A DNA stretch of 64,000 bases from Enterocytospora artemiae (taxonomy: Eukaryota > Microsporidia): NCBI GenBank assembly GCA_038659295.1, contig JASNGC010000002.1, forward strand, positions 186,001 to 250,000, given 5' to 3'. A model generated the notes under the pieces. It was not told the origin of the DNA. It did no database searches and saw only the letters and a list, made by a program, of their open reading frames with translations. Of this stretch, positions 4,954 through 55,520 are shown in pieces. A program made the translations under genes and the position numbers. The first letter of the stretch is position 1. The number at the start of each line of letters is the position of its first letter.

Positions 4954-5397
4954 ATGTTTAAGGCATTGATCTTGGTGGTTATCCTACTTTTACAATTGGG
5001 AATATTTGCGGTGATATTCTTTGGTGCTGACAAGTCAATGGATCAGGCCGTTGATGCGCTGGGCAAGGCAGGTGTACAGGTTCCCAAGCCAGAGCATAGT
5101 GATAAGTCAAAGAAAGGTGATGATAAGCCAAAGGATGATGGGGATAAAAAGAAAGAGAGTGGAGAAACAAAATTGATTGAGAATTCTGATGTAAAACCAG
5201 AAAATGATGAATCAGGATTAGTGAACAAATCAAAGGAAAGCGAAATATCAGAAGATGACAGCTCTAAAAACAATTCCCCAGATACTCCCCAAGCCTCTCA
5301 ACTGGTAAAAAAATCCAACTCCATTGGTTTAGTGGGTGAAGGAAAAAATTTCAGTTCGGCAGGAATAGACCTGGGGTTAGATGATATAGTTCAATAA
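4954..5397 (+). CDS. Small protein with N-terminal signal anchor and charged tail, unknown function
   Basis: 147 residues. An N-terminal hydrophobic segment (about 4-24) acts as signal peptide or signal anchor. It is followed by a low-complexity region rich in Lys, Asp, Glu and Ser (about 45-120) that is surely disordered. The last 20 residues are more hydrophobic. I recognise no domain. No C-triplet precedes the ATG; the upstream region is T-rich. The stop is inside AATAAA. It could be a secreted or surface protein or a small ER membrane protein. Confidence 0.6.
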   Translation: MFKALILVVILLLQLGIFAVIFFGADKSMDQAVDALGKAGVQVPKPEHSDKSKKGDDKPKDDGDKKKESGETKLIENSDVKPENDESGLVNKSKESEISEDDSSKNNSPDTPQASQLVKKSNSIGLVGEGKNFSSAGIDLGLDDIVQ

Positions 5398-5662
5398 AAG
5401 AATGGGAATCTAACGGAGCTTTCTTATAATGTTTTTTTATCAAATTAATGAATTCTAATCTGTTGCGACTGCCAAGGCATATTTGGGAAATAGTTCGGTA
5501 GATTAGGTTCCAGGATAAACTTCCCAATATTAATAATCTTAATGGGATGGAAACACAGAGTTACCTAGGGCATGAGTGACTTATTAGGATTCTAACCCAG
5601 ATTCATCGCACTTAAAACGTGGTTTCAGAAACTGTTTATAATTTTCGTCCAAAAACAACAAA

Positions 5663-6268
5663 ATGGTAACGCTGGGTATAAGGTCATTGGTATTTGCTAG
5701 TATACTATGTGCCATGGTAAGTGAGGACAACAAGCAGATTATTAGTGTCACCAATGAAGCAAATGAGTTTAGCAGTAGAAAAGACTCCAATTATGCTGGT
5801 AATGATTTCGTTGACGACAATTTCTATGATGAGGAATTTGTTGATGACAGCTTTAATAGTCCACTAAGATCAATTGTCAAGGAAAAGGTAAAAACGGACA
5901 TAAAAGATATTAGAAATGTATTGAAAAGTGAAATGGAAGAGATGAGTCCAGAACTCAACGAAAAAATAGCATCAACCATCAATAATTCGAAAATAGATAG
6001 AAAGAAGTTCAGGGATATCTTTTTGATCAAAAAGAGGATCATCACCGATGGAGACAAAAAAATAGTCAGCTTTGATATACAAGAACGAGTAATACCAAGA
6101 GAACCCACACTTTCACAAATTACCGAGAACAAATACACCTCCTATCTCTTTATTGGAATACTGATACTGCTTTCTAGCCTGGTCTTAACAACTACCATGA
6201 AAATGTATCAGAGTTTGATCAAATTGAAATACATTGAGAACAACATCAAGGAAATCCCAATCCAATAA
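5663..6268 (+). CDS. Predicted type I membrane protein with signal peptide, unknown function
   Basis: 201 residues: an N-terminal signal peptide (about 1-20), a lumenal acidic region rich in Asp and Asn (about 45-68), a helical middle (70-130), then a membrane segment (about 155-178) and a short basic cytosolic tail. The layout suggests an ER or surface protein, but I recognise no family. The start lacks a C-triplet and follows an A-rich leader. The gene ends in AATAAATAAA. Together with the preceding gene it forms a pair of small secretory-pathway proteins on the same strand. Confidence 0.6.
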   Translation: MVTLGIRSLVFASILCAMVSEDNKQIISVTNEANEFSSRKDSNYAGNDFVDDNFYDEEFVDDSFNSPLRSIVKEKVKTDIKDIRNVLKSEMEEMSPELNEKIASTINNSKIDRKKFRDIFLIKKRIITDGDKKIVSFDIQERVIPREPTLSQITENKYTSYLFIGILILLSSLVLTTTMKMYQSLIKLKYIENNIKEIPIQ

Positions 6269-6478
6269 ATAAAAGTATATTTTTAATCATATATATCAAC
6301 CAAATATGCTTCTTTATTACCTCTATAGAATAACGTTACCCAATATGGTAATACTTTGTGGTTCAAAACTGCCACATATCTTTTTTCCTTAAGAACACAT
6401 AACACAGGGTTCCAGTCAACCCCCGTCTCTTGAAAATGTAAGTCTCACAAAAAATTATCTTCTAAAAATCAAATTAGT

Positions 6479-8641: not shown

Positions 8642-8677
8642 GCGTGAGAAAACCAGAAAAAATTTATTAGAAAAAAT

Positions 8678-8709
8678 TTCTAGAAAATTTCAGACAAAAA
8701 ATTCTAGAA
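8678..8709. promoter_or_regulatory. Two heat-shock-element-like sites upstream of the Hsp110 gene
   Basis: TTCTAGAA occurs at 8678-8685 and again at 8702-8709, 24 bp apart, and lies 37 to 68 bp before the Hsp110 start codon. TTCnnGAA is the inverted pentamer pair bound by heat-shock factor. Additional GAA/TTC units flank both copies. Function is inferred from the match and from the gene it serves. Confidence 0.5.
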
Positions 8710-8849
8710 AAGTTAAATTTAAGAGAAACCTACCTGCCATGATTATTAATGGATGAATGGAACTGGAATTTCCATTTTTATTAATATTGTTCCATTCTAT
8801 TATTTTTCCCTTTGGGTATTACAAATTTATTTAGAATTCCTTACCGTTA

Positions 8850-13214: not shown

Positions 13215-14546
13215 ATGAATGGCATGATATTATGCCAACTCTTTGGATTTAGCAGTGTGATTTGTAATGCAGAGGTATTTCTGGATGGTATCAGGAAAGA
13301 CGTTTCTCCTGTTGATGGTGATAAAATGGTTAGGGAAATGGCACCACATATATATTCAGATGATGCAACTCATCTATTCAAAGAACTATTATCAAAGATC
13401 GAAACGATTGGTGATTTACTACAACCAAATGATGAAGAAAAGAAGACTATCCATGAGATAAAGTCGTTACTGAAATATCAATTGATAAAATATCGTTCAG
13501 GCATTGCTGATGATAGTATAAAATCGCATCAACTGCAGAAGTGGCCCAATTATGAATCATTTAGGGAGCGCATTATGCTATATTGGCATATGGGTAACCA
13601 AAATATTATGTTATTACCTTCAAAAGAGATTGCAATCCTATTTAGGAAATTAACTGCTACAGAAGATAATAGCAAGATGTATATTTCGACCTCAGATGAT
13701 CTAACTCCAGAAGATATTGAATCATTATGGGATTTATATAGCTATGATGATATATATGGATATAATAAAGCACTTGTGTCTGAGGCACATCTGGAGACTC
13801 ATGATTTTCTAGGTATTGATGAGTTATTATTTAAATCAAAAGAAGATTCTGAGGCTAAAGATCATGCCCCATTACCACATAATATTCTAGGAGAATTTCA
13901 ACAACTAATGGATTTTAATCGTACAGAAACACTTAATTATGTCAATGAGGGGGTGTATATGGTGGATATCAATGAAATGCTAAACAGAGAAGAATATGGT
14001 GAAAACTGGAAAATTATAAACAGAAAAGAATATGATGCAATCAGGGAAATTATAAAAGAAAAAACATATAATGATGAAATCAGGGAAATTATAAACTGGG
14101 GGATCGATGATGTACTAGACAGAAGAGTATCTGATGATATCAATAAAGAGATGGATGCTGTGATAAGGATATTGAGATATGTATCATACAAATTTAAAAG
14201 TTCAGAGGACTTTTCTAAATTTTGTAATACCTTGGAAAAGTTGTCGAGATTAATCCAGAAAGCAGAGTACTCACACCTGAAGGGAGTCATAGTTATGTAT
14301 ATTATTGGAAATAATATAGACAATGATTTTATGATCCCTTCTGTTGCTATTAATCTTGTAAGGTTTATAAACGCTTTAGTCTCAATCCAAGAACTGGAAC
14401 TATCTCCAGAGTCTGAAATTATGATAATTCGTGGTGGAGGGTTTATGGAGGAAGTCTTAAGCTTCTTCATGGAGAAACTTTCAGACCTATTAATAGAGAG
14501 AACTTTCAAAGCCACCACATCATCAATCGAAGAATTAAGAGAATAA
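13215..14546 (+). CDS. Predicted secreted protein of unknown family
   Basis: 443 residues from the first ATG. Residues 1-18 form a plausible signal peptide (MILCQLFGFSSVICNA core). The remainder has no further membrane segment and reads as an alpha-helical, acidic protein rich in Glu, Ile, Asp and Tyr. A short imperfect repeat around residues 275-300 contains EIREII-like units twice. I recognise no domain. By eye the wobble positions are more AT-rich than in neighbouring housekeeping genes, which suggests a fast-evolving or accessory gene. There is no C-triplet before the start; the stop is inside AATAAA. The longer frame from 13197 begins with TTG and was not used. Confidence 0.65.
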   Translation: MNGMILCQLFGFSSVICNAEVFLDGIRKDVSPVDGDKMVREMAPHIYSDDATHLFKELLSKIETIGDLLQPNDEEKKTIHEIKSLLKYQLIKYRSGIADDSIKSHQLQKWPNYESFRERIMLYWHMGNQNIMLLPSKEIAILFRKLTATEDNSKMYISTSDDLTPEDIESLWDLYSYDDIYGYNKALVSEAHLETHDFLGIDELLFKSKEDSEAKDHAPLPHNILGEFQQLMDFNRTETLNYVNEGVYMVDINEMLNREEYGENWKIINRKEYDAIREIIKEKTYNDEIREIINWGIDDVLDRRVSDDINKEMDAVIRILRYVSYKFKSSEDFSKFCNTLEKLSRLIQKAEYSHLKGVIVMYIIGNNIDNDFMIPSVAINLVRFINALVSIQELELSPESEIMIIRGGGFMEEVLSFFMEKLSDLLIERTFKATTSSIEELRE

Positions 14547-20579: not shown

Positions 20580-20872
20580 GTCCGTCAATACCAAGGATTT
20601 AAATATGAATAAAGTGTCTTTTAACATCAAATGCCCCTTCGCTCAATCCCATTTATGTTTTGGAATAATTGACGTCATCATGCAGAAATTAGTTGTTTAG
20701 AATTCTGTGCTACTGAAAATTTATCGAATATGTTTACATCCCTCATTCGAATGTGCATTGCTGCATATTGATTCCTGTTGTGCAAAATATAGCCAAGTAA
20801 ATTTATCAGGTAAAATGAAAAGATAAAACACTGTTTTAGATTGTGTATTTAGATTGAAAGCCAACCACTTTT

Positions 20873-22132
20873 ATGCTTTTGGAAAATATTTTAAAAACTT
20901 CATTTGCAATTGTCGATGCGGATACCAATCTGTATGTTGGCCAAAGTGGTTCAAAGCTAGGCCGTGTTTCTGATAAGCAGAAGGCCCTGGAACTAAAAGG
21001 AACATATGCAGGTGGAAGAGGTATTAATATCGGGTTAAAAACAGATTCTTCTCAGAAGCTTGTAATGAATTACGACGAATTAGCATTGGGTAAAACGTCT
21101 AGTAATGAGGATGTATACATAACACAGGTACAGAATGATGGCTTCAGCATTCGAAGTGGCTCAAAGTGTCTGACCAAATCGGAATCATTGAAGTTTGTGA
21201 ACTGCACAGGCAGTCAAGATGAAGTCTTCAAGGTGGTTGAAACACATTTTGAGGATATGGTTGGACAAACAGAGAATTTTTATGTTAAAGATCCTAAAAG
21301 TGGAAACTTTTTTGGAATGGAAACGATAAAAAAAGGGTCTGGATCATGGATTACTCTTGTCCCCAAAAGTAAGGCTATGCCTGCTATAATTAAGAAAGTG
21401 GCAAAGGCTGATGCACTTGCCATAACTACACCATCACTAAAAAACACAGTATGGGACTATGGTTACTCGATCATATACTTTAATTCGGATTTCCATGGTA
21501 AGGTAAATCAAATGTTTCATTTCAAGAACACCGGAAAAGGATATCAGATTATTACTGATGTCTACAAATGTGCATTTTATGACGAAAAAAACAAGTCCAT
21601 CAGATTTAAAGCTTGTGCTGGGGGAAGTGAGGAGTTCTTTGAAGTGTTAACTCAGGCACAGTTTGACAATACTGAGAAGGAATTCGTAGCACCACCACCT
21701 GCTGCCCCTACTCCAGCACCAGCGCCTGCAAAAGCAGATAGCTCGCCAAGCTATTTGATATTCTTGAAAAACATCGGCTCTAACAGTTATATTGGATTTA
21801 CTTCGTCAAAGGAAGGAAAGGCGGGGCCAAAGTCCGATGCATCCAAAATGTCTTTGGAAGATTACAGTAAGGGAAAGGATACATATATAATAAATTTAAT
21901 CGAGAGGGGACTAGTAATGGATTTGAGGGGAAATGGGGACCAAATCATTGGATATCCTAAGCATGGGGGAGTAAACCAACGATTCAGCCTAGAGCCTTAC
22001 AAAAATGGACAGTTTTATATAAAAAATGCAGGAAAATGTATATCAGTTATTGCCTCAACCCAGCGGCTGCAGAAATCTGAATGTAAGATTGGTGATTCTT
22101 CCCAACTATTCGAACCCGAATTGGCCAATTAA
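20873..22132 (+). CDS. Ricin-B lectin-like (beta-trefoil) protein with three units
   Basis: 419 residues made of three beta-trefoil-like units, about 1-125, 135-258 and 290-419. They are recognisable by repeating patterns such as KCLTKSESLKFVNCTG, VNQMFHFKN, KACAGGSEEFFEV, VNQRFSLEP and GKCISV...LQKSECKIGDSSQLFEPE. A Pro/Ala-rich linker (about 265-287) separates units two and three. Such lectin-like proteins recur in microsporidia, where they are proposed to be secreted and to bind host glycans. The N-terminus is only weakly signal-like, so the export route is unclear. The ATG follows a CC-containing but not CCC leader. The stop is inside AATAAA. Confidence 0.8.
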   Translation: MLLENILKTSFAIVDADTNLYVGQSGSKLGRVSDKQKALELKGTYAGGRGINIGLKTDSSQKLVMNYDELALGKTSSNEDVYITQVQNDGFSIRSGSKCLTKSESLKFVNCTGSQDEVFKVVETHFEDMVGQTENFYVKDPKSGNFFGMETIKKGSGSWITLVPKSKAMPAIIKKVAKADALAITTPSLKNTVWDYGYSIIYFNSDFHGKVNQMFHFKNTGKGYQIITDVYKCAFYDEKNKSIRFKACAGGSEEFFEVLTQAQFDNTEKEFVAPPPAAPTPAPAPAKADSSPSYLIFLKNIGSNSYIGFTSSKEGKAGPKSDASKMSLEDYSKGKDTYIINLIERGLVMDLRGNGDQIIGYPKHGGVNQRFSLEPYKNGQFYIKNAGKCISVIASTQRLQKSECKIGDSSQLFEPELAN

Positions 22133-23961: not shown

Positions 23962-24528
23962 TTATTGACTAGTAACCTCAGGCTCTGGAACCTCTTTTCC
24001 GTATTTATTCAAATACACTATATTTTTATCTGTTTTCGACGATACTTTGATTCCGAAAAATAACTGTGATTCATCATTTTTGTCGCACTTTTTCTCGACG
24101 AGCAAATATGCATCTTTGGAGTCTATACGAGAACCGATTGCCATACATTCCTTAGACAGGACATCAACAATCTGGTAGTTTTTAGTATTGGGGATCTTAA
24201 GGAAGTTCCAGGTTGAAAGATTACTCTCCAGGCATGTACTGATCTTAGAGCTACCATTGGGAGAGCACAGGAACTGACCGGCAAGATTAATAGATGCATT
24301 GCTAATCCCGGTGCTTGTTGAGACTATTTGAGGTGGAATTACATTATATGAATTTGATGTAAAGAAATCCTTGGTAGGAATAAGATAAGGCGTGTTACCC
24401 TGCCTTGCCAATGTGTGGTTTGGAAACCTGGTACTCTTAATAAGTACCTCTCCAACGTCAATATCTAGATTTGTATTGCTGTTTGCATCCCTCTGAAGCG
24501 TCGTCAGAATATGAACTAAAAAGAGCAT
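23962..24528 (-). CDS. Predicted secreted ricin-B lectin-like protein, single unit
   Basis: 188 residues. The N-terminus (MLFLVHILTTL) could be a short signal peptide. Residues about 90-175 have the trefoil pattern: AGQFLCSPN...STCLESNLSTWNFLKI, then KECMAIGSR...VEKKCDKNDESQLFFG. This matches the third unit of the lectin at 20873 in the spacing of Cys and SQLF. It may be a secreted, glycan-binding host-interaction protein, but this is inferred. There is no C-triplet before the ATG. Confidence 0.6.
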   Translation of the reverse strand: MLFLVHILTTLQRDANSNTNLDIDVGEVLIKSTRFPNHTLARQGNTPYLIPTKDFFTSNSYNVIPPQIVSTSTGISNASINLAGQFLCSPNGSSKISTCLESNLSTWNFLKIPNTKNYQIVDVLSKECMAIGSRIDSKDAYLLVEKKCDKNDESQLFFGIKVSSKTDKNIVYLNKYGKEVPEPEVTSQ

Positions 24529-24858
24529 AGATAAATACTCCTACCGAATTAAATGTTGCTTTGTGAAACAGTTTCACATAATTTCTGTAAATAGAAATCT
24601 AGAAAATTGGCATAGTGAAACCTGGGGTGACGACTTCAAATCAATAAATTTCATGCTGATAATACACCAACTACTTTTGTATCTCTGTTGCAGGAAAGAA
24701 GAATATTTTATTAAACTTCAAATGTGGAATACAGATAATCATGAAATTGTGGTATCATCACAAACTCCAGAATATCAATATCGTGCCATTGACCTGCTTC
24801 ACTCAGCCTACAAGATACCCACAGTTTGTTCTTTTAAAATATTCAATTTTTTACCCAA
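24529..24858. other. Divergent intergenic region with a doubtful frame
   Basis: A frame runs from 24563 to 24871, but it begins with GTG. The first ATG (24653) gives 72 residues with no recognisable domain, and the frame overlaps the C-triplet and start of the next gene. Treated as non-coding. Confidence 0.4.
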
Positions 24859-28530: not shown

Positions 28531-31191
28531 ATGAGATTTTTTAGCTTACTTTATGCAATGATCATATCCACAGCACAGCATAGAGAAAATCTGGGCACAG
28601 AAATAGTGCCCCATGAATATGACATTAAGATCGACATCTCAGAAGAAAAGTTCGATGGGGAGGTTAGAATATTTGCATATGCACAGAATAGGGTCGATCA
28701 GATACGCCTGAATGCAAAAAATCTAAACATAGAGAAAATACAGGTATTCAACGATAACCGCTCTTCGTTAGAAAATCAATCCAGTCCAACAGAGATACAA
28801 GAAATAACATTCTCTGAAAAAGAAGAATTTCTAACAATAAGGTTGCCTGAGTCAATTTCGGGGAAATTAAATATCCTTGTAAAATACTCTGGAAACTTCT
28901 CAAAGTTAAATGGGCTATACAAATCGGAATACAACGGCACAAATGTCTTTTCTACTCATTTCGAGCCTTCAGATGCTCGTGCTGTATTTCCTTGTTTTGA
29001 CCAGCCTGATTTGAAGGCTGAATTTAATATAAGCCTGGTAGTTCCTGATCAATACATGGCATTAAGTAATTCATCCGAGAAAAGTGTTGAAAAAATTAAA
29101 GACACGAAAAAAACAAGATACATCTTTGAAAAAACACCGATAATGTCCACCTACCTTGTAGCCTTCGTAGTGGGGAAATTAGACTATATCGAATCCACAT
29201 CCACAATACCTATCCGTGTATATGCGGCCCCTGAAGAAAAAGAATGGGGGCTGCATGCTCTCGAAACCGCTTCAAAGTGTTTGAAGTTTTTTGAGGAATA
29301 CTTTGGAATCCCGTACCCACTAAAAAAACTGGATCTGGTGGCAATCCCGTCCTTTGCAATGGGAGCAATGGAAAACTGGGGATTGATTATTTTTAGGAAG
29401 ACCAATTTGCTGTTTGATGAATCATCGTCGTCTATTAGGTCTAAGGTGTATATCACTGTGACTGTTTGCCATGAACTTGCCCATATGTGGTTTGGGAATC
29501 TGGTTACAATGAAATGGTGGAGTGATTTGTGGCTGAATGAGGGATTTGCTACGTGGGCAGCATCTTTAGCAATTGAAAAGACCAAAATTATTGATTGGGA
29601 TGTCTGGACTGCATTTATTAACGATGATGCTGAGAGTGGAATGCTGGCTGATTCCTTGCAATCCACACACAAGGTGGCAGGTGAAGTATACAGGCCAAAT
29701 GAAATAGGCCAAATTTTCGATGCAATCTCATATTCAAAGGGATCCTCGGTCATAAGGATGCTAGAGAACTGGATTTCCCCAAAAAAGTTCCAAAGTGGCC
29801 TAAAGAAATACCTGAAAGAATTTGAGTACAAAAATAGTGCCACAAGTGATTTGTGGAACTCTCTGGACTCGCAAATCGATGCTAAGGATGAAGAAGACAG
29901 TTTGCCTCGGGTAGTCTCCCGAACATTTAACCTGCTTGGGGAGATGAAGATAATAGACGGGAAGCTTAACTTGATTGATGATGAGAAAAAAAAGGATGTT
30001 CTACAAAGTGGAAGTTCTGCAGATACTGTTACATCTATTATAGATCCCTGGATCTTTAGAAACGGATTTCCATATTTAGAAGTTAGAGACGAGCGCGATT
30101 ATATTTATTTGGTCCAAAAAAGATTCACACTTGGCCATAGCAAGGAGAATGAACCGTCCTGGCCGATTCCAATCAAGATACGATGGTTCTACAGCAATGA
30201 TAAGGGAACTGAAATCGTAACAGAAATACTCATGCGGGAAAAAGAAATTAGAATTCAAAAAGTAACTGATCTTTACAAAATTAACGATGATGCTTCCGGG
30301 TTTTACAGGGTATTATATCCCAACGATGTTTTTGAAAGAATTATTCAGCTTAAAATGAGCGACCAGAATAGATTGAATTTGTTTGCAGACTCATTCCAGA
30401 TGGGACTTGCACTAAAGGGAGAGTTTCCCATCAAGTATATTGAAAAATTGACGGATGAGCCTAACCATGAAATTCTCTCGAATGTCTTGGGGAATGTTGT
30501 GGCACTTAAATCCATATTCTATGACATTCCAGACATTAGAGACAGGCTTGTGAGGGTTGTAAATCTGCTTACTGAAAAGAGGGCACAGCAATACGATCTG
30601 TTTTCGCCACCAACATCTATAAAAGAACTGTCATTGGCTAGTATGCTAGTATCGCACGCTGTTCTCACTGGAACCTTAAAGGTAACATCTTTGGATGTCC
30701 ATCAGGAGTTTAAAAAACAATATTTTATGACTATAGTCGATGAGGATTTTGAGCAGGTAAAGGATTTTTATCTTAGTAGTAATCTTCCTGGGCAGAAAGA
30801 AGCAGCCTTATTTGCTCTGGGAACTGTTAAGATTAAGGAGAATCTTGTAAAACTTTTTAAGGACATTTCATTTGTAGAGGATCAGGATATTATCTACCTG
30901 TTTGCAGGCTTAAGCTCGAACTTGGAATTCAGAAACGATATCGCAGAGTTTCTTATTGATAATTTCGATCAAATTAAAGGTCAAGTGGCTGATCCTGGCT
31001 TGCTGAGGCGTGTTATAGAGTATTCCCTAAAGAACGTTTTACAAGATGGCTATAGGGAAAGGGTTCTGGCATTTCTGGATCAAATTAGTGTGGATAAAAC
31101 ACTAAACAGTGTGGTTGAAAAATGTAAGAATTCCATTGCCTACAAAATGAGGGTTCGCAAAGCTTTTGAAGAACGAAGCAGTTTTTATTAA
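28531..31191 (+). CDS. M1-family zinc aminopeptidase with signal peptide
   Basis: 886 residues. The exopeptidase motif GAMENWG is near 276. The zinc site is HELAHMWFGN near 313 with the downstream glutamate in NEGFATW, all intact. The order is N-terminal beta domain, catalytic domain, then a helical C-terminal domain from about 560. Residues 1-15 form a hydrophobic leader ending in alanine and serine, so the enzyme probably enters the ER, unlike cytosolic puromycin-sensitive homologues. A charged insertion of some 60 residues lies near 450-510. It trims N-terminal residues from peptides. A frame from 28528 starts with TTG and was not used. There is no C-triplet. Confidence 0.92.
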   Translation: MRFFSLLYAMIISTAQHRENLGTEIVPHEYDIKIDISEEKFDGEVRIFAYAQNRVDQIRLNAKNLNIEKIQVFNDNRSSLENQSSPTEIQEITFSEKEEFLTIRLPESISGKLNILVKYSGNFSKLNGLYKSEYNGTNVFSTHFEPSDARAVFPCFDQPDLKAEFNISLVVPDQYMALSNSSEKSVEKIKDTKKTRYIFEKTPIMSTYLVAFVVGKLDYIESTSTIPIRVYAAPEEKEWGLHALETASKCLKFFEEYFGIPYPLKKLDLVAIPSFAMGAMENWGLIIFRKTNLLFDESSSSIRSKVYITVTVCHELAHMWFGNLVTMKWWSDLWLNEGFATWAASLAIEKTKIIDWDVWTAFINDDAESGMLADSLQSTHKVAGEVYRPNEIGQIFDAISYSKGSSVIRMLENWISPKKFQSGLKKYLKEFEYKNSATSDLWNSLDSQIDAKDEEDSLPRVVSRTFNLLGEMKIIDGKLNLIDDEKKKDVLQSGSSADTVTSIIDPWIFRNGFPYLEVRDERDYIYLVQKRFTLGHSKENEPSWPIPIKIRWFYSNDKGTEIVTEILMREKEIRIQKVTDLYKINDDASGFYRVLYPNDVFERIIQLKMSDQNRLNLFADSFQMGLALKGEFPIKYIEKLTDEPNHEILSNVLGNVVALKSIFYDIPDIRDRLVRVVNLLTEKRAQQYDLFSPPTSIKELSLASMLVSHAVLTGTLKVTSLDVHQEFKKQYFMTIVDEDFEQVKDFYLSSNLPGQKEAALFALGTVKIKENLVKLFKDISFVEDQDIIYLFAGLSSNLEFRNDIAEFLIDNFDQIKGQVADPGLLRRVIEYSLKNVLQDGYRERVLAFLDQISVDKTLNSVVEKCKNSIAYKMRVRKAFEERSSFY

Positions 31192-32538: not shown

Positions 32539-32766
32539 CTAAAATAACTCGGCAAATGCAGCAGATATATCGTATGCCTGCTCATTGTTTTTTGTCAAAT
32601 TACTACTATATCCCTGGCCTAAAAGATTTCTGCCCTGATTTGTACCAGTTAAAAATGAGGCTGCAGAGGTGAAGGGTTTTGTTGAACTTCTCGAGTGTAA
32701 ATTCGAGGATGAATTAAGTATGCCATAGTTAAAAGAATATACTGCTGATAGGAGGAGAAGAAGCAT
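32539..32766 (-). CDS. Small predicted secreted protein
   Basis: 75 residues from the internal ATG at 32766. The first 12 residues are a Leu-rich signal peptide (MLLLLLSAVYS), followed by a Ser/Asn/Thr-rich mature part of about 60 residues. The frame runs back to 32871 but that extension would bury the signal. No family is recognised. The leader has AAATTT-like sequence and no C-triplet. First of four adjacent minus-strand genes for small secreted proteins. Confidence 0.5.
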   Translation of the reverse strand: MLLLLLSAVYSFNYGILNSSSNLHSRSSTKPFTSAASFLTGTNQGRNLLGQGYSSNLTKNNEQAYDISAAFAELF

Positions 32767-32990
32767 ACGGAAATCCAAAATTTTGTTTAAATTTTTGTAT
32801 TGTTTCAGAATTAAAACAAAAGAAGGTTTCGTAAGGGATTCAAAACGAATTATTAAGATATGAATCATCAACTAGTTTTGGAATTCTGGAAGTGCTGGTT
32901 ACAAGAGAGATAATGAGATGTGTGCTGGCATCAAACTAGCATAGTCCTTAGGAGGTTAAAAACTCCATGTGTTTTTAATTGAATTTATAA

Positions 32991-33110: not shown

Positions 33111-34010
33111 TCAATTAGATGCTAGGCGACTACCATTTGAGCCATTTTCGAAAATATTAAAGGATGAACCCATTTTGTGGGCATTGTCTGCAATTTGCTT
33201 TGCCTTCTCACCACTAATTGTTGTCTCTATTCTTTCAGGATGGACACGGTGCTCAATTGGAGTCGAAGCCTCATGCTCTGCAACCGATTTTCCCGAAATA
33301 ACATAATCACCGTGCCTAATATCAGTTGGTACATGATAAGTCTCTTCATTGACCTTTTTTACAATATTGTCATAATTTGGACCTTCCTCCAATCCCTTTG
33401 AAGCCTCGACATGTTGGGTAATGTCATCCAAATGAGCCAACTCCTCCTGCCTTGCAATTTCTTTTGCGTTCTTCCGTCTAATCGAGTTGATCTCATCGAG
33501 TATCTTCCTCTCATGGGCTTGGAATGGAATTGTGTGGGCTGGGAATGTAATTACAGCAACGCTCTTTTTAGCCACAAACTCGGGCTTGAATTTCTCCTCA
33601 ATTATTATTCTGTTCTTCTCATCAATGGCTCTTTCAACATCATGCTGAGCTATGTGCTTCTTTTTATCTGCAAGATCCTTCTCAGCTCTCTTTGCCTCCA
33701 GCTCTCTCTCTCCAGCCTCAATTGCAGCCTGTGCAGCCCGGGATTCAGCGGTCTCCAGGTTTGATTTCCTCTTATGTTCTTCTTTAACCTCGTCTAAGCC
33801 TGGTGTTCTTTTACCAGATGGTAGAATTTCTCCTTCTCTGAGGCCATGTGGTACTTCAAAAAGTTCCCCACGATGTGGTCTACCATTACCTTTTGTTGTA
33901 TCCTCAAGCTCCCTATTACAAATTTCACAATCTGAATCGTATTTATGAACATGACTATCCAAGGCAAAAACATTCCAAATCAGAAATAGAAAATTCATTG
34001 TGTGCAACAT
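33111..34010 (-). CDS. Predicted secreted, charged coiled-coil protein
   Basis: 299 residues (295 from the second Met). A signal peptide (about 1-18) precedes a short Cys/His-rich segment (HVHKYDSDCEICNRE). After that comes a long helical region dense in Ala, Glu, Lys and Arg (about 75-140), then a mixed region with repeated HRVHPER- and EARH-like charge clusters, and a Gly/Asn/Ser tail. Such Lys/Glu-rich secreted proteins include microsporidian polar-tube and spore-wall components, but no specific family can be claimed. No C-triplet precedes the ATG. Confidence 0.6.
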   Translation of the reverse strand: MLHTMNFLFLIWNVFALDSHVHKYDSDCEICNRELEDTTKGNGRPHRGELFEVPHGLREGEILPSGKRTPGLDEVKEEHKRKSNLETAESRAAQAAIEAGERELEAKRAEKDLADKKKHIAQHDVERAIDEKNRIIIEEKFKPEFVAKKSVAVITFPAHTIPFQAHERKILDEINSIRRKNAKEIARQEELAHLDDITQHVEASKGLEEGPNYDNIVKKVNEETYHVPTDIRHGDYVISGKSVAEHEASTPIEHRVHPERIETTISGEKAKQIADNAHKMGSSFNIFENGSNGSRLASN

Positions 34011-34445
34011 TCTCGAAACTATTTTAACGCGAATAATGTTTCAGACATACCATCACACCTCTAAAATGGACAAATTATATGGCCGGTATATTTAAATAAT
34101 AATTGATCCATAATTGATTAGGTCTGTGAAACACCCACCAAACTACATTTCAGGAACGATCAAATAATTGACAGGTGATATAAGAGTTTATGCACTGCGG
34201 AATTATCTTATTTTATTAAAGATCCTTTATGCATTAAAAAGAGTATTGTGCATGTTTTAATTCTTGCAATAATTTTTCGATCATTTAATTTAAACCTTCC
34301 CATTATTTATTGGATCAGTTAAATTCTTCTAATTCATTAAGGACTTTGACATGGATTTCTAGCTAAAAACAATATATTAAAACACACACCTTTAACATAT
34401 CTAACAACTATCATAGCGTACTCTTAGTAAATTTGTGTGTATTTA
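34011..34445. other. Intergenic region within the secreted-protein cluster
   Basis: About 435 bp, AT-rich. I found no ORF with a signal peptide on either strand and no repeat shared with the neighbouring 54-bp duplication. Confidence 0.35.
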
Positions 34446-34790
34446 TTAATGTTTTAATATTTCGCGGTAGAGATCCTCATCAGCCACTCGTCTTATAAGC
34501 AGTGGAACATTGGGATGTTGAATGGCAGCTCGCGTATTTTCTTGGCTTTCGAAATCCATCGGAGTCCCCCGAATTTTGGAGTTATATTCATTGAACATGG
34601 GATCGTTGCACAAACTTATTCGCTTGGACAGCAGGTCGTTTATTGTTTTTACAAATTCTGGAGAACTGTTGTATCCTAAAGGGTGCTTATGGAAGCTACT
34701 GGATGTAATGTGTTCTTCTGAACTGTTTTGGGTCTTCAGTGAATCGCATCTGACCGATGTAAGTAACGGGAGCAACACATCTATGAGCAT
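34446..34790 (-). CDS. Small predicted secreted protein
   Basis: 114 residues from the ATG at 34790; the frame to 34799 would start with TTG. Signal peptide at about 1-15 (MLIDVLLPLLTSVRC), then a hydrophilic mature part with a single cysteine near residue 59. No family is recognised. The leader is AT-rich without a C-triplet, and the stop codon is inside AATAAA. Confidence 0.5.
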   Translation of the reverse strand: MLIDVLLPLLTSVRCDSLKTQNSSEEHITSSSFHKHPLGYNSSPEFVKTINDLLSKRISLCNDPMFNEYNSKIRGTPMDFESQENTRAAIQHPNVPLLIRRVADEDLYREILKH

Positions 34791-34982
34791 AATAGACAAC
34801 TACAAAATTATTAAATGGTTTCTTTTGAAACATAAACGATCAGAGAAGAAACATTAAGCTATCCAACCACAATTAGCATGGTGGCACAAAAAACAATGCA
34901 TATATTGCATATTGTCTTTCAATAAAGGATAACTCCCAAGAAATAACAGTTTTGAGAAATTATTTAAATCAATAGTATTTAA

Positions 34983-35156
34983 TCACCTGGAACTAATTTT
35001 ATTCACTGGGTCTATGACTGTGTAACCTTCATCTCTTAAGTGATTTGCTATAAGAGCATCTTCATCTTCGAGTATATTTTGTAAATATTTGGACGGATTA
35101 AAAGAACTTCCTTGCACCACATCTGCGATCATTGAGAAAAGGAAAACCAAAAGCAT
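34983..35156 (-). CDS. Very small predicted secreted protein, 57 residues
   Basis: A complete ORF too short for usual length cut-offs. It starts MLLVFLFSMIADVVQGSS, a good signal peptide with a small-residue cleavage site, followed by about 40 acidic-polar residues (QNILEDEDALIANHL...). TTTAAATTTTTA lies about 40 bp before the ATG, and no C-triplet is present. It is the fourth consecutive minus-strand gene here with a signal peptide, which raises its likelihood. Confidence 0.5.
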   Translation of the reverse strand: MLLVFLFSMIADVVQGSSFNPSKYLQNILEDEDALIANHLRDEGYTVIDPVNKISSR

Positions 35157-42289: not shown

Positions 42290-45200
42290 TCAAATTGTCT
42301 TCCTACGGTTCTTTTTTCTGATCGTAAATTTATGTTCGCTTTGACTCGACTTCCATCTTTCAATTGCCTTCTTTGCAGATTCATAACCCACAGCCACTAT
42401 CTCGTCATATTTATGAAAATCAGTGGTTTTATACTTTTCCAGATCGGGTAGAATATGTAATACAAAGCTGTCCGAGTTTTTGCTGTACAGCTCAATGGAT
42501 TTTTTGGAGTTACTTAGAAAGGTCAAGGTATACTGAATCTCCTGTAGGGTCATGTATGCCTTAGATTTGAAATATCTACCGAATGCCAGAATTAGTCCAC
42601 TTCTTGATTCGTACGGAATAAACTTAGGAATGCAGACTGGAGTAGGGCTTTCAGTGTTGTAGACGTTTGATGTATTTTTCTCCTTCATTTCCCCGTGCTC
42701 ATATGCATTGAACATGATGTCGCTCCTCACCGACGATTCTCTGCTCACATCTACAGATATAATATTGTTGACACCCATCTGTCTCATAACATCCACAGGA
42801 ACGTTGTTAGTATAGGCTCCGTCCACGAGTAGAGTATTGTTGTAGAACACGGGGGGAAGATATCCACAAATACTCATAGATGCTCTGACAAATGTGGAAA
42901 GTGGACCTGTGGTATGGACAGACTCTGCGTTGGTTCCCAGGTTTGTAGTGACACAGTAGAAGGGAATATTGCAATCTTCCATGGAAATCATAGACTTATC
43001 ATTTCTCAAACTCTTTTTGAACAAGCAGTAGTTATTGAGCCTTCCCACTTTGGGTCGCTCGACTGTAAACAACTTTTTCAAGAAATAGTCCACGGACACG
43101 CCAGAAAACATGGAGACAAACGGATATGTCAAATCCACCATCATATTCAGGGATGAAGACATAAACCTACTAAATTGCTTGACTCGAGTGTACACTCTCA
43201 CTGAATCCATGTGTATACAGTACAGACTACCCACAAGGGCACCCATGCTTGTCCCACCTATGATATCCACAGAGATTCCGGCATCTTCCAGTGCTCTCAA
43301 AACCCCAACATGGGCATATCCCCTGGCACCACCTCCACCTAAAACCAAACCAATCTGTCTATCTGTTAAATATCTGGATAGCCTGATACAATCAAATTTA
43401 GATCTACAACTGGTCGAGTCGGAAAGATCAATAAGGGAAGAGCTTTTATCTGAATAAACACAGTATTTTGAGGACATCATATTTAGGGCTCGAAGAGTTG
43501 ATGCATTGTGCATGTTGTTATATACCTTGTGGATCCTTCTTCCATTGATGTACTCCCTAAATCTTCTACTCAGCAGAATGTGGATGTTTTCATCGGCTTT
43601 TTTTCTCCTTGCATGTCCGTACCTAAGTGGAAAGACAGATTCTATAAATAGGACAATATATCTGATAAGAAATACCTTAAGGAGTCTCTTATAGAGTGTA
43701 GAGAGTAAACTCTCAACCAAGCTCTTGTAGTTAGTGTCTATTGGAGCTGAAATAATCTGAACAAACTGGATATTGTGAAAGGGGAAATTATATGTAGGAA
43801 AATTATTATTTGGCGTGGTATTATTAGTTGTAGAATTACAGCCCCTACTACTATTCCTATCAGCATTGTCTGTATTTCTGATAGTGTTATCAAATTCCTC
43901 TATTTGTTCCTTATCAAATATCTCCAATTTTAAGTCGACAGATTCCTCTATAAAGCCAGATAAACGATCATTATGAACGAGTAATAGTACCACCGGATAG
44001 TTCAACCTACGCAACATATCACCGATCAGCACAGGCACCAGATGATTTATTAGACTTGTATTGCTGACTAGGTCAATGCTCTTTATGCCAAAGACCTTTT
44101 CTATCTCTTTGTTGATCTCTTCAATCTTTATTAGTACTGATTCTTCCGGCATAGTCGAACGTAGTGATTGAGCCAACTGTAGAATGGGATCAGGTGTGTT
44201 GCTGTCAACTGTACTATTGGCACTGTTGTCAACACCACCCTTCAGCCTATTCCCTTTTTCTAGCAGCACAATCTTTCGTTTTTGGGCTCTTTTCTTACAC
44301 ATCAACAAGTTTTCTAAAACTATTCTGTAGAATTCAGGAACATTGGCTAATAGATAATTCATGGCCAAGGGATTCAGCTTTACATAGTCAGAAATCTTGG
44401 AGTTATCGGTATATCCGGTATTATCAGCACCAGCATTGGTAGAACTGCTGCAAACGGGATCATGATTCATAAACTCTTCCAAAAATATAAACTTGCGGTT
44501 GTTAATAAACATACTTCCCGTGTATTTTACCTGATCAGTACGAATCCATTTAGAAGTCGCTCCAAAAATTAAGAAGGGCTTAGGGATGACTGAGAACAAG
44601 GCTTTGATAAGCATCCTACTGCCATCACAGCCGACACCCATGGCATCATTGGGATCCATACTGGCTAAATTCGTCACCAACCTAATTTGACTATCCATTT
44701 TAAATACCATCCTATATTCTATGCAGCAGTCTGGAAACAGAAATTTGGACAATCCAAAAGTGGCTCCTGGTCTCAAAGTAACAGAACTGTTCCCACTGGC
44801 CACAGGATTGTTTGAGGACGCCACATCATTTCTTATCTCTTCCACCAATACTTCACCACTTTCCAACAACACCACCCCATCTAGCTTCATCTTGTTCCCT
44901 GTCTTATACACTATACTCCTTCCAAACCTAAAAACATCCCTTATTGTGGGATCATACATAGAATTTTCCTCAAGCTGTAGTAGGCTACACTTCCAAACGT
45001 TTATTGATGGAATCACAGAGCATTTCGATATTAGAGATAAGTACAGATAGAAGTATAAGTTCTTCTCCATGGCCTGATTACCACTGTAATGTGTATTGTT
45101 AGTACTCCATTCCCCTATTTTCTCCAGCCTGGCTTCTTTCGATTTAACTCTTTTTACTATTCCACTGGGAATATTTAAATAGTCAAAACAATTAAATGTA

Positions 45201-45508
45201 GAATCTCCATCAGAGAGAGTGGAGATGATGGAACCATCGTACACAATATCGATCTGCCCGGAAAGTATAAAGTAGTTACAATCGTCAATGGTAGAGCCTA
45301 TGGGCAATGTAATGGTATTGCTGAGTGGCTGCTGATTGCTGATGTCCTTTAGTATCCTATTTATGTAAGGCTCAGCCTCCTTATACAACTTTAATGGCAC
45401 ATCAGTTACCATTGGGATATTACTGAAGGACATGGTGGAAATAGAGGACTTAATTAGCAGCAATGCTGTAACCATAAGAAAAATTGTGAATAGGAGCAAG
45501 GGTATCAT
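42290..45508 (-). CDS. NTE1: Patatin-like lysophospholipase, NTE1 type
   Basis: 1072 residues. An N-terminal membrane anchor (about 1-20) is followed by a long region with degraded cyclic-nucleotide-binding-like domains (one around 55-115, others less clear). The patatin domain has the oxyanion loop GGGGARG (near 723), the nucleophile GTSMG (near 753) and the dyad aspartate in VDGAYTNN (near 893). NTE1 hydrolyses phosphatidylcholine to glycerophosphocholine at the ER. Asn/Ser/Thr-rich linkers replace parts of the regulatory region, and by eye none of the nucleotide pockets keeps a full phosphate-binding cassette. GGG at 45509-45511 places CCC directly before the ATG. Confidence 0.92.
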   Translation of the reverse strand: MIPLLLFTIFLMVTALLLIKSSISTMSFSNIPMVTDVPLKLYKEAEPYINRILKDISNQQPLSNTITLPIGSTIDDCNYFILSGQIDIVYDGSIISTLSDGDSTFNCFDYLNIPSGIVKRVKSKEARLEKIGEWSTNNTHYSGNQAMEKNLYFYLYLSLISKCSVIPSINVWKCSLLQLEENSMYDPTIRDVFRFGRSIVYKTGNKMKLDGVVLLESGEVLVEEIRNDVASSNNPVASGNSSVTLRPGATFGLSKFLFPDCCIEYRMVFKMDSQIRLVTNLASMDPNDAMGVGCDGSRMLIKALFSVIPKPFLIFGATSKWIRTDQVKYTGSMFINNRKFIFLEEFMNHDPVCSSSTNAGADNTGYTDNSKISDYVKLNPLAMNYLLANVPEFYRIVLENLLMCKKRAQKRKIVLLEKGNRLKGGVDNSANSTVDSNTPDPILQLAQSLRSTMPEESVLIKIEEINKEIEKVFGIKSIDLVSNTSLINHLVPVLIGDMLRRLNYPVVLLLVHNDRLSGFIEESVDLKLEIFDKEQIEEFDNTIRNTDNADRNSSRGCNSTTNNTTPNNNFPTYNFPFHNIQFVQIISAPIDTNYKSLVESLLSTLYKRLLKVFLIRYIVLFIESVFPLRYGHARRKKADENIHILLSRRFREYINGRRIHKVYNNMHNASTLRALNMMSSKYCVYSDKSSSLIDLSDSTSCRSKFDCIRLSRYLTDRQIGLVLGGGGARGYAHVGVLRALEDAGISVDIIGGTSMGALVGSLYCIHMDSVRVYTRVKQFSRFMSSSLNMMVDLTYPFVSMFSGVSVDYFLKKLFTVERPKVGRLNNYCLFKKSLRNDKSMISMEDCNIPFYCVTTNLGTNAESVHTTGPLSTFVRASMSICGYLPPVFYNNTLLVDGAYTNNVPVDVMRQMGVNNIISVDVSRESSVRSDIMFNAYEHGEMKEKNTSNVYNTESPTPVCIPKFIPYESRSGLILAFGRYFKSKAYMTLQEIQYTLTFLSNSKKSIELYSKNSDSFVLHILPDLEKYKTTDFHKYDEIVAVGYESAKKAIERWKSSQSEHKFTIRKKNRRKTI

Positions 45509-47313: not shown

Positions 47314-47445
47314 AAGCTATGGTTTATGCAGTTTGAAAACCTGTGAATCCTATTCGGACTGGCGACTTCAAAGACCAACAAAGATACATGCATGATACTT
47401 TATCTGGTTAAAACAGACCTTCCTTATTTCCTCACCCCTCTTTTT

Positions 47446-50185: not shown

Positions 50186-50532
50186 GCAATGGGTGAATTA
50201 TGGAAAACAAATAAATAATATCGGGAGAATTTGTTGAGCAGATAAAAATGATACTGTCACAATGAAGGTATAAGGAGTGCTAAAAATGTTGGAAGGGAAC
50301 TCGTATTGCAAGAACTAACTATTTATTGGCCAATGGATAAGGTCTAAGTTGTAATTAGGAAATATAACCAGTTAAATTCATGATAGAGGGTTGATGCAAG
50401 AAAATGTACAAAAATGAATGATAATGAGATGTTTACAGTTGGCAAGGCAGGGTTTTTTGCTCGATAATGGATACAGTAGGCTCTAAAGATCTTGAATCTC
50501 TATTCATAAAGAAATCTGTAGTCTACATGTAT
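50186..50532. other. Intergenic region
   Basis: About 350 bp between the two tail-cysteine genes. No ORF, tRNA or repeat supported. Confidence 0.4.
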
Positions 50533-51315: not shown

Positions 51316-51495
51316 TTTGGCACTGAAAATAATAAACAATTTTTGAACGAAATAAAAATTTAAAAACCGACAAACTAAGCAAAGCCACATAAACAAAACC
51401 GGCCCACATGTCTTCCCATAGAAGCTTTGGGTGTTCTTCCATTAAAATTCAACTTTCCAATAGTTAGTTTGAAAGTCTTCCAGCCCCCATACTTC

Positions 51496-52662: not shown

Positions 52663-52796
52663 TGATGGGCATAATCACTACCACATTACACAAGCCAGTC
52701 GCTATAAAAGAAATTGCCTGAGTGTAATAAACTGAGTCTCTAAAATATGATTTATTATATTGTTTTATGTGTTAGTGTGCAGATTTCCCTGAAAAT

Positions 52797-53369
52797 TCAC
52801 CCGTTATGTTCATTACATTCTGATGATTCGTCAACAACTACTATTCTAAATGCAGGGCCAATTACTGTCTCATGCAGAAACCAATCTTTTAAATTGAATT
52901 GTAACATCTGATGCTGCAAAGACTGCTGGTCGTTCGAAATGGAAAATGCAAGTCTGATCATCCTGCCATCTAGAATTTGTAACTCCTCATAACTCTCCAG
53001 CTCTGCATCCTTCCCATCCTCGTCCAAAATTTTCAAGGTAATAAAGGGAAAATGTGATATTGCATCTTTAGAAATGAAGTCTCCACAGATTTCCACAAGC
53101 CTACCATCTATAGATGTTCCAACAGTCATGTTCTCGAAAACACCAAACTCTGTAGCATTGGATGATATCCCAGATATGTTTTCCAATGCCAACTCTTTAT
53201 TGCTTACTGCAGCAGGTCTCCGATCAGAAATAGTCCTTGTGGACTTGGTATAATATGTTCCATATCCCCCTGGGTTGGGTGCTATACCATAAGTCCCATT
53301 TGAACTGCAAGCCATGCCGAAAGCTACTACAACGAGAGCTACTAATCCAATCATACAGGGGCAAAGCAT
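52797..53369 (-). CDS. Predicted secreted or anchored protein, unknown
   Basis: 190 residues from the ATG at 53369. That start puts a hydrophobic signal (MLCPCMIGLVALVVVAFGM) at the very N-terminus and leaves a 34-bp promoter shared with the divergent Dph2 gene. Longer starts at 53402, 53405, 53420 or 53468 are in frame but overlap it. The mature part has a Gly/Tyr-rich N-terminus and then a mixed region without a recognised domain (FPFITLKILDEDGKD, DWFLHETVIGPAFRIVVVDE). Leader is AT-rich with no C-triplet. Confidence 0.55.
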   Translation of the reverse strand: MLCPCMIGLVALVVVAFGMACSSNGTYGIAPNPGGYGTYYTKSTRTISDRRPAAVSNKELALENISGISSNATEFGVFENMTVGTSIDGRLVEICGDFISKDAISHFPFITLKILDEDGKDAELESYEELQILDGRMIRLAFSISNDQQSLQHQMLQFNLKDWFLHETVIGPAFRIVVVDESSECNEHNG

Positions 53370-53403
53370 TTTGAAAAATGAAATAAAATTTTTTATTCCC
53401 ATC

Positions 53404-54702
53404 ATGCCATTTTCGGACATCTCAGTGGCCCAGAATATGCCTTTTGACGGCTTCTCAGAGACAGCCATCCTTTTTTCTCCAGAATATTCTAGAGTGGCCC
53501 AGACGATCTATGATCTCTTGTCTTCAGATGGGACCAATTCATCATTTTTCCTCATCTGCTCATCATCAATTATTTGCCCACTCAAGAGCTTGCCATGTGA
53601 GTCCTATATAATAGTTGGGACAGAGTGTCCTCTTCACAGCTTCAGGAATGCAGTGTATTACAAGAAGGAATTGGCCAATGAAACGAAAAATAAGCTAAGC
53701 ACCATAATCAATCGGAAATATACATCTGAAGTAGACTCCCTGTTCGACAGTGTCTGTGGAAACCCACCGAGCAACAGAACAGTCTTTGATGCAATTTTTT
53801 GCGACAGTATTTATATAATTGAGGATTGCATTCCATCCGTAAAGCTACTGACTATTTCGGAAAGCAGCGGGTTATATGCTCCAAGTGCAGTGGAAGCCAC
53901 AAGTATTAGTGACAGTGCATCATCCAAAGTGAAGCATGGGAAAAATAACCACTATACCATCAATGAGTTGCCGAATCTCGAATCAAACATACTTGTAGTC
54001 ACAGAAAATCAGCACGTATTTGATTTTTATTTACACCATTTTCAGAATTGCGAGTTTGTATGCAGCTTCAATCCAGATCCTGGTGCTTACATATCAAATT
54101 TGATGAAAGAGAATACAAGTGGGCGGTTTTACGAAAATGCAGAAGTTATTGCGATAATTTATACATCTGAGCTGTTTGAGTCTGATGCATCCAGAATTGT
54201 CTTGAATGGGAAGAAATCTAATAAAATCGATGGTACGCCTGGAGCCACCTCCAAGACATTCTACAAATTATTTCTAAGAGATGTTTCTTACGAAAGATTG
54301 ATTTCTGTGGACAGCATCGATTGTATAATACTTATTGATTGTCCAGTATTTAGCTGCTCTATAAAGTTGCATATCCCAGTCATTTCACCATTCAGCACTG
54401 CTGTTGGCGTCACCGGCACATGGATGAATGAATACTATAAAAATTTCATTGGCCACGTGGAAGATCCAGAGGATCTGTCCGATAATTCGATGCCTGTTAA
54501 TAAACAGAGTAAGGACTGTATCTCTGAGGCTGCTGGTGGGGATTTAGCAATAAGCAACAAAGTAGGCGAAATTCTTGCTACTAGAGATTTCCAGGGTGTT
54601 ACATTTAGAAATGACACTGAAGACATGGACCTATACACAGGTAGGTCTGGTACTGCATCTGGATACGATGAAGAAGGAGCAGATCTTGAGAAAAGCAGGT
54701 AA
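53404..54702 (+). CDS. DPH2: Diphthamide biosynthesis protein 2
   Basis: 432 residues. The N-terminal region is diverged, but the C-terminal half shows Dph2 features: IILIDCPVFS, PVISPFSTAVGV, WMNEYYKNF, and the end RDFQGVTFR...GRSGTASGYDEE, which is typical of Dph2. It is the partner subunit of Dph1 (gene 0.7 kb upstream on the same strand) in EF2 diphthamide synthesis. The frame opens at 53314, but CCC at 53398-53400 supports the ATG at 53404. An insertion rich in Ser/Asp lies near 390-410. Confidence 0.85.
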   Translation: MPFSDISVAQNMPFDGFSETAILFSPEYSRVAQTIYDLLSSDGTNSSFFLICSSSIICPLKSLPCESYIIVGTECPLHSFRNAVYYKKELANETKNKLSTIINRKYTSEVDSLFDSVCGNPPSNRTVFDAIFCDSIYIIEDCIPSVKLLTISESSGLYAPSAVEATSISDSASSKVKHGKNNHYTINELPNLESNILVVTENQHVFDFYLHHFQNCEFVCSFNPDPGAYISNLMKENTSGRFYENAEVIAIIYTSELFESDASRIVLNGKKSNKIDGTPGATSKTFYKLFLRDVSYERLISVDSIDCIILIDCPVFSCSIKLHIPVISPFSTAVGVTGTWMNEYYKNFIGHVEDPEDLSDNSMPVNKQSKDCISEAAGGDLAISNKVGEILATRDFQGVTFRNDTEDMDLYTGRSGTASGYDEEGADLEKSR

Positions 54703-54974
54703 TTGAACAGTACTTTATATTATTAGTAAATTGGTTTGTCCGGATTCTTCACAATGGCAGTTACGTGAGGTTACATGTATAATAAGTCTCACTTCTAAGT
54801 TTTCACTGTGTAGGAAAGTGGTGTTATTCTTGGTTAATTTTCAGTTTGAGTTTCAAAGCTCCTTTTCATTCATAGATGCCTAAACAATGGTGGTAATATA
54901 CAATTAATTGGATGCTTAACAAGTACAAATACATTCAGTAATGCATGAACATGCTTTATTAATTCTCTCTTCTT

Positions 54975-55520
54975 CTACCTGCTTCTGCTAAATATTTTGT
55001 AAATATACATTTTTGGACTGTCTGTCCTCAATCTCTTTTTCTCACTCAATTCTGAATATTGCAGATGCCTATAAAGGAATACGATTAAGTCCATGAGGAA
55101 AACAACAAGACAAGTTGTGGCTACTAAGATGAGCAAACTAACACATCTAGAGTTGCCTTGGCTAATATTCAGATTCTCCTCCAAAAAGACATATGAATTG
55201 GAAAGCACATACTCATAGGTCTTGATGTTATCCTTGAGTAGAGAATAGCCAGTAAAGAGAATATCATGATATTGCTTATCGGATATTTGTGAGAATGGAT
55301 TCGGTAGTCTGCTGAGTTTTCTATAGTTCAGTTTTATCTCCCTGATTGTGGCATTTTCAGCCACATTTAGTAGCTCATAGAATGTAGAAACGTTAATGTT
55401 CAAATCATGTAACTTCTTGATCTTTGATTTTACATCATAAATCGATTCTTGTGAGCAGCTTACTAGAGTCAGATATTTTAGTAGGAAAAGAAAACTCAAA
55501 AGAAGAAAATTCCTAGGCAT
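54975..55520 (-). CDS. ER membrane J-like protein with degenerate J domain
   Basis: 181 residues: signal peptide (about 1-22), a J-domain-like segment (about 43-105: STFYELLNVAENATIREIKLNYRKLS...), then one membrane segment (about 125-148) and a basic cytosolic tail. The HPD tripeptide that activates Hsp70 is absent; the expected place reads LPNPF. The layout resembles Erj5 or DNAJC1 of the ER. GGG at 55526-55528 is the coding-strand CCC five bases before the ATG. It is the one signal-peptide gene in the window with that motif. Confidence 0.65.
   Translation of the reverse strand: MPRNFLLLSFLFLLKYLTLVSCSQESIYDVKSKIKKLHDLNINVSTFYELLNVAENATIREIKLNYRKLSRLPNPFSQISDKQYHDILFTGYSLLKDNIKTYEYVLSNSYVFLEENLNISQGNSRCVSLLILVATTCLVVFLMDLIVFLYRHLQYSELSEKKRLRTDSPKMYIYKIFSRSR

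Follow-up and report, generated by a model that had tools for sequence, protein, structure and literature searches.

A positioned TGTTTCA element marks a probable second promoter class, enriched for secreted proteins, in the microsporidian Enterocytospora artemiae

Do the secreted, host-facing genes of a microsporidian share a promoter of their own? The question is raised by a stretch of 64,000 nucleotides of the Enterocytospora artemiae genome (assembly GCA_038659295.1, contig JASNGC010000002.1, positions 186,001 to 250,000 of the forward strand), hereafter the window, for which an earlier note had listed eleven genes with an N-terminal signal peptide or anchor and had remarked that ten of them lack the triplet CCC close to the ATG. 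The genes and their hydrophobic N-termini are present as listed, and CCC is missing from -15 to -1 at 10 of the 11 starts, the exception being the gene that starts at 55520. The separate promoter type proposed from this contrast does appear to exist and is enriched for genes of secreted and spore-surface proteins, but it is defined by a positioned element, TGTTTCA, and not by the absence of CCC or by AAATTT runs; the leaders of these genes were correctly described as AT-rich, but that remark overlooks the element itself, which lies at about -42. We consider it fairly probable that this genome uses at least two promoter types, and that the second (class II), which carries TGTTTCA and lacks CCC, is read by the transcription factor Ste12 and serves as a switch for invasion and host-facing genes at one life stage.

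The window was compared with a sample of 20 ten-kb stretches (200 kb) of one other contig. Starts in both were re-called by a coding-potential model that made no use of the motif, and of the 155 genes called the 150 with sufficient upstream sequence were used (39 from the window and 111 from the sample, one of the latter, at L022, being a copy of a window gene). Hydrophobic N-termini and signal peptides were scored by a simple hydrophobicity rule with a looser and a stricter cut-off. The CCC signal itself is strongly non-random at these starts, occurring in -15 to -1 in 93 of 150 genes as against 8 of 150 in -60 to -46. GGG, considered as a substitute, is not enriched (1/150 in -15 to -1, 5/150 in the control stretch); the gene for BiP, which lacks both CCC and the element, does have GGG in -15 to -1.

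The contrast between secreted and other genes holds within the window, where the motif-free starts give CCC in 1 of 7 genes with a hydrophobic N-terminus and 22 of 32 others (p=0.013), but in the sample it is not significant, with CCC in 4/10 and 66/101 genes respectively (p=0.17) and, when first-ATG starts are taken, in 7/13 and 58/97 (p=0.77). Pooling window and sample with the coding-potential starts gives 5/17 against 88/133 (p=0.006). The list in the earlier note had moreover left out three genes that by eye combine a hydrophobic N-terminus with CCC, namely those starting at 45508 (a patatin-like protein with an N-terminal anchor, 42290 to 45508, minus strand), 46562 (a membrane gene) and 61955; adding them gives 10 of 14 without CCC and shifts the Fisher p value against that note's 29 of 38 other genes from 1e-4 to 0.003, or to 0.008 when the three are also removed from those others. 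Outside the window, then, secreted genes show only a weak tendency to lack CCC.

The positive signal is a TGTTTCA that on reading proved common to the upstream regions of several CCC-less genes. In a 6-mer scan of all 57 CCC-less upstream regions (16 of them from the window) GTTTCA/TGAAAC ranked top, with 11 occurrences in -50 to -36 against 1.5 expected (nominal p=5.5e-7). Within the sample alone the element occupies -50 to -36 in 7 of 41 CCC-less genes and in 2 of 70 genes with CCC (p=0.012; 0.012 expected per gene), and it is found there in 3 of 10 N-terminally hydrophobic genes and 6 of 101 others (p=0.034). Across the genome, the pattern TGTTTCA, 4-12 bases, TTTA, 5-35 bases, ATG has 70 matches against 32 for the reversed pattern, and its distance to the ATG is sharply peaked, with 29 of the 70 at 40-44 bp and only 7 and 4 in the 5-bp bins on either side. 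The peak belongs to one orientation, since the opposite form, TGAAACA, has 9 of 74 matches at that distance (p=1e-4). TGAAACA at -42 was accordingly rejected as a general form of the promoter, as it gave no peak and a reading frame at only one of nine fetched sites; it nonetheless occurs before the window gene starting at 32766 and at L077.

Genes picked by the element and its spacing, with neither CCC nor the N-terminus used as a criterion, allow the association to be read in the other direction. Fifty-three on-spacing sites were taken, 29 of them distinct sites with TTTA outside the window and sample, and 24 found without the TTTA rule and drawn from the listed part of 248 matches. At 22 of the 53 a reading frame opened and ran through the fetched end (15 with TTTA, 7 from the other 24), the spacing being 41-43 bp in 17 of the 22. 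CCC is present in just 1 of these 22 frames compared with 70 of 111 sample genes (p=3.4e-7), and a hydrophobic N-terminus in 11 of 22 compared with 13 of 111 (p=1.4e-4). The set includes a spore wall protein (PF17018, 51 bits), a ricin-B-like lectin match below the Pfam cut-off, and glutaredoxin and NUDIX proteins that each have a hydrophobic N-terminus. A partial off-spacing control of 11 fetched sites yielded two reading frames, neither with a hydrophobic N-terminus. Descent of these promoters from a common gene family is unsupported, their mean pairwise identity being 0.34 against 0.32 when shuffled, and no pair among the 22 proteins is related at E<=1e-3. One further on-spacing site, in L036 and outside these counts, precedes a frame of 97 codons whose product begins hydrophobically and which by eye resembles L100.

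Two further features belong to the architecture of class II. Five of the 22 reading frames have an exact second copy of the element 10-13 bp further upstream, and a sixth has a degenerate one. The tandem form has 14 matches genome-wide against none for the reversed pattern, although a single locus accounts for two of the 14 and two more are identical copies; in most class II genes the element stands once. Four further tandem loci were fetched, at spacings of 34, 41, 43 and 50 bp, and all have a frame of more than 100 codons and none has CCC, L106 and L107 being strongly hydrophobic over a stretch close to the N-terminus; a fifth, L108, copies the window gene that starts at 4954. A TATA-like word at -34 to -24 accompanies 6 of the 11 CCC-less genes with the element (4 of these 11 come from the window), compared with 15 of 93 genes with CCC (p=0.008), and is found in 8 of 46 CCC-less genes without the element. 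A strict TATA requirement was dropped, since seven of the class II reading frames came from the 24 sites taken without it.

Known spore genes were examined as a test, namely PTP2 and its neighbour, of which the neighbour has the class II layout. PTP2, identified through its Pfam model, combines a hydrophobic N-terminus with the absence of CCC and carries TGAAAC at -54 and TTATAA at -30. Its neighbour is likely PTP1, a reading based on its position beside PTP2, its signal-peptide-like start and its composition, as it has no Pfam match; it too has a hydrophobic N-terminus and no CCC, with TGAAAC at -52, GTTTCA at -41 and TATATAA at -30, and an in-frame stop 19 codons upstream bounds the choice of start. 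The gene upstream of it (L103, minus strand, 151-711) has CCC and, by eye, the look of an E2F/DP-type winged-helix protein.

The two-class idea is in part supported, and Ste12 is the candidate reader of the element. The consensus of the yeast protein, TGAAACA, is the reverse complement of the element (PMC7017024), and CcSte12 of the plant pathogen Cytospora regulates effector genes and binds to a TGAAACA-bearing promoter (PMC10789715). The present genome has one Ste12 match (PF02200, 183 bits). Among the best 120 of its 1266 matches, many are microsporidian proteins with 70-79% identity across about 40% of the query, and others match at 41-45% over nearly the whole of it; a seven-row alignment of the protein with six relatives shows good conservation of the STE domain. 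A metagenome protein, P0121, is 94% identical to it over 70% of its length and indicates a close relative in environmental data, while a sequence search for a solved structure gave a single chance-level match (E=0.57). In the Ste12 gene itself TGAAAC lies at -71 relative to the likely start rather than at -42. That this protein reads TGTTTCA here is suggested by the shared core and by its presence in the genome.

In the model that we favour, class I promoters would be those that carry the established microsporidian signal, CCC directly in front of the ATG, and class II promoters those without CCC in which TGTTTCA begins about 42 bp before the ATG, sometimes doubled at a spacing of 10-13 bp and often followed by a TATA-like word at about -25 to -33. 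Ste12 would bind the element directly beside the site of the TATA-binding protein, transcription would start close to the ATG, and the class would probably act to switch on invasion and host-facing genes jointly at one life stage, a role suggested by its enrichment for hydrophobic N-termini, including those of a spore wall protein and the likely PTP1. The same two proteins make stage specificity plausible.

Several observations weigh against this account, in addition to the unstable CCC contrast described above. The signal peptide calls rest on a simple hydrophobicity rule, and under the stricter cut-off the enrichment among the element-selected reading frames falls to 6/22 against 10/111 (p=0.027). 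Because 31 of the 53 on-spacing sites opened no long reading frame, many such sites must be chance occurrences, and a scrambled 7-mer lies on spacing in 5 of 21 matches, which does not differ significantly from 29 of 70 (p=0.2). Yeast-type Ste12 sites usually function in both orientations; in this genome the reverse orientation has no peak at 40-44 bp, and the single frame among the nine fetched reverse sites (of 74 matches) is that at L077. The element occurs in only 11 of the 57 CCC-less genes, the remainder being unexplained (wrong starts, weaker sites or other signals), and CCC accompanies it in 2 of 9 element-bearing sample genes. The PTP2 site, at -54, is off the usual spacing, and four of the listed window genes (13215, 28531, 35156 and 53369) have no GTTTCA or TGAAAC within 80 bp upstream and are not explained by class II. 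There is, further, no clean switch between secreted and non-secreted genes: 11 of the 22 element-picked frames lack a hydrophobic N-terminus; some look intracellular, namely a myosin, a PX protein and a PPPDE-domain protein (the sole one of the 22 with CCC); and an adaptor subunit gene in the sample carries the element. Conversely, CCC is present at some proteins of the endoplasmic reticulum or Golgi or that are possibly secreted, for example a p24/GOLD protein (L020:233), and at one of two hexokinases (L068), whose N-terminus is hydrophobic, provided that translation begins at the internal ATG. The second hexokinase-like gene, L069, has neither a hydrophobic N-terminus nor CCC; glycolysis has been lost in some relatives, which makes the presence of two such genes of interest.

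This mixture of genes is what would be expected if class II were a general regulated promoter, for example of sporulation, with its secreted bias arising only because many stage-specific genes encode secreted proteins. The element at the myosin, PX, PPPDE and adaptor genes, the CCC of the p24 protein and of the possibly secreted hexokinase, and the fact that the likely PTP1 and the spore wall protein belong, to judge by their names, to the spore all agree with that reading, which we rate at slightly short of an even chance; no result counts against it, and it is a variant of the explanation preferred here rather than its opposite. A different reader is a more distant prospect. The element could be real and be bound by one of two forkhead proteins or by an HMG-box protein in place of Ste12, and the two forkhead matches in the genome are the main rivals on this score. 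A forkhead-like upstream motif is reported in the Trachipleistophora hominis genome paper (PMC3486916). The core that topped the 6-mer scan, GTTTCA/TGAAAC, is nevertheless an exact match to the TGAAACA of Ste12. Forkhead sites resemble TGTTTAC, so that they share TGTTT with the element and differ from it in the core. Tandem and inverted arrangements have been described for Ste12 sites in yeast, and the tandem and inverted copies seen here fit that habit. We regard a reader other than Ste12 as unlikely. Least probable of all, and hardly to be expected, is that the absence of CCC is an artefact of annotation, produced by poor start calls or weak promoters of secreted genes. The non-significant CCC deficit of the hydrophobic sample genes could be taken that way, as could the several CCC-less first ATGs in the window that gain CCC at the next ATG, but a positive, positioned and oriented element marks many such genes, the near-absence of CCC recurs in frames picked by element and spacing alone, and the peak in distance to the ATG is hard to square with an artefact.

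The element and genes of the window can be set out against the two-class model. GTTTCA or TGAAAC stands at exactly -41 of five listed genes. Before the 147-residue protein with an N-terminal hydrophobic anchor (4954 to 5397, plus strand, no CCC) there is a direct pair at 4902 to 4918 (plus strand), made up of TGTTTCA at 4902-4908 and GTTTCA at 4913-4918, with TTTATA at -27, which also matches the genome-wide tandem pattern. The 201-residue protein with a signal peptide-like N-terminus that follows (5663 to 6268, plus strand, no CCC and no Pfam match) has GTTTCA at 5622 to 5627 (plus strand) and TTTATA at -28. On the minus strand, an inverted TGAAAC-TGTTTCA pair (24564 to 24576), with its GTTTCA at -41 and TTTAAT at -25, precedes a 188-residue protein with a hydrophobic N-terminus (23962 to 24528, no CCC, a weak Pfam match below the cut-off); the reverse-orientation element at 32801 to 32807, with TTTAAA at -25, precedes a 75-residue protein with a signal peptide-like N-terminus (32539 to 32766, no CCC, its start being the second in-frame ATG); and TGTTTCA at 34826 to 34832, with TTTAATA at -25 and among the genome-wide pattern matches, precedes a 114-residue protein (34446 to 34790, no CCC) whose N-terminus is hydrophobic by eye and scores 1.2 by the rule, under the cut-offs used.

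The 299-residue protein with a signal peptide-like N-terminus at 33111 to 34010 (minus strand, no CCC) has TGAAACA at 34037 to 34043 (minus strand), which is -33 from the first ATG at 34010 and -45 from the next at 33998. The four genes without the element, all CCC-less, are those at 13215 to 14546 (plus strand); the M1 aminopeptidase at 28531 to 31191 (plus strand), with an N-terminal hydrophobic stretch and a TATA-like TTTATA at -28; a 57-residue frame from the earlier list at 34983 to 35156 (minus strand); and the gene with a hydrophobic N-terminus at 52797 to 53369 (minus strand), whose start is an internal ATG of the frame 52797-53468 and is uncertain. The exceptional gene with CCC, and hence of class I, encodes a DnaJ-like protein with a signal peptide-like N-terminus (54975 to 55520, minus strand; 26 bits against a Pfam cut-off of 27.8). 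As for AAATTT runs as a mark of the second class, the idea was dropped on inspection by eye, unscored. A CCC-less ricin-B-like lectin gene (20832 to 22132 with its upstream site, start 20873, plus strand; 24.2 bits against a cut-off of 25.6) has a near-variant, TGTTTTA, at -41 (20832-20838).

Some observations on the surrounding genome may be recorded here. The lectin gene occurs twice, the window copy (20813-22132) equalling L022:5850-7169 in length, with the 60 bp upstream identical. The promoter of the 4954 gene together with its first 111 codons, at positions 4873-5286, agrees at 414 of 414 bases with L108 near the end of contig C3. Both places also match an HSP70-like gene, and this end of the window therefore probably lies within a recent segmental duplication. 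The gene at L011:4298-6076, for an FAD-dependent glycerol-3-phosphate-type dehydrogenase that is hydrophobic over an N-terminal stretch, lacks CCC and has TGAAAC at -46. The genome comprises 3.0 Mb in 5 contigs, and the GC content of the window is 33-40% per 4 kb. Its microsporidian affiliation is attested by the PTP2 gene (PF17022, 137 bits; no match in 14 control genomes) and by the M1 aminopeptidase, which scores highest against Glugoides intestinalis (47%), Vittaforma corneae reaching 43%; a microsporidian small subunit (SSU) rRNA model also matched at full length, a model that fires in 9 of 14 prokaryote controls as well. Five scored SSU rRNA copies (45 candidates) sit about 8-28 kb from the ends of contigs C1-C4, a placement close to contig ends that is the expectation for subtelomeric rDNA.

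The timing of gene expression in microsporidia is largely open. If the account is right, host-facing and possibly stage-specific genes could be listed from sequence alone, with a candidate reader present in many microsporidia; start-codon annotation would improve where CCC is absent; and a regulator that directs effectors in plant-pathogenic fungi would play the same part in their intracellular relatives. A wider claim, that microsporidia kept Ste12, a fungal regulator of mating and invasion, as a dedicated invasion and secretion switch, with TGTTTCA at -42, a TATA-like box and no CCC serving polar tube, spore wall and secreted genes throughout the phylum, we advance tentatively and with some doubt.

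CCC/GGG-like and AAATTT-like signals have been described in microsporidia (Peyretaillade 2009, PMC2803860), as has a TATA peak near -27 (Cornman 2009, PMC2685015), and CCC within 15 bp of the ATG in most called genes here agrees with them. Unlike the described GGG-like signal, GGG is not enriched, and neither the TGTTTCA element nor a tie to secreted genes appears in the parts of those two texts that were available; a word search of PMC2803860 for 'signal peptide', 'secreted' and 'polar tube' gave no match. In T. hominis, as here, TATA and CCC lie upstream of genes, and 40 further MEME motifs are described there; the factors named in the available text are Lim1-like, forkhead and Cdc5, and overlap with its supplementary motifs is possible (PMC3486916). 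A literature search found no report of a TGTTTCA, TGAAACA or Ste12 promoter class in microsporidia, the T. hominis supplementary motifs and a 2012 follow-up on CCC lying outside that search. With the fungal Ste12 or pheromone response element regulons (PMC7017024, PMC10789715) the present genome shares the TGAAACA core and a Ste12 match; unlike those regulons, as far as the portions consulted describe them, the element here keeps a near-fixed distance to the ATG, lies mainly in one orientation, often stands beside a TATA-like box and belongs to CCC-less genes. What is probably new, against the CCC, GGG, AAATTT and TATA signals already known, is a fungal Ste12-type element built into a promoter of fixed position, where it stands in for CCC.

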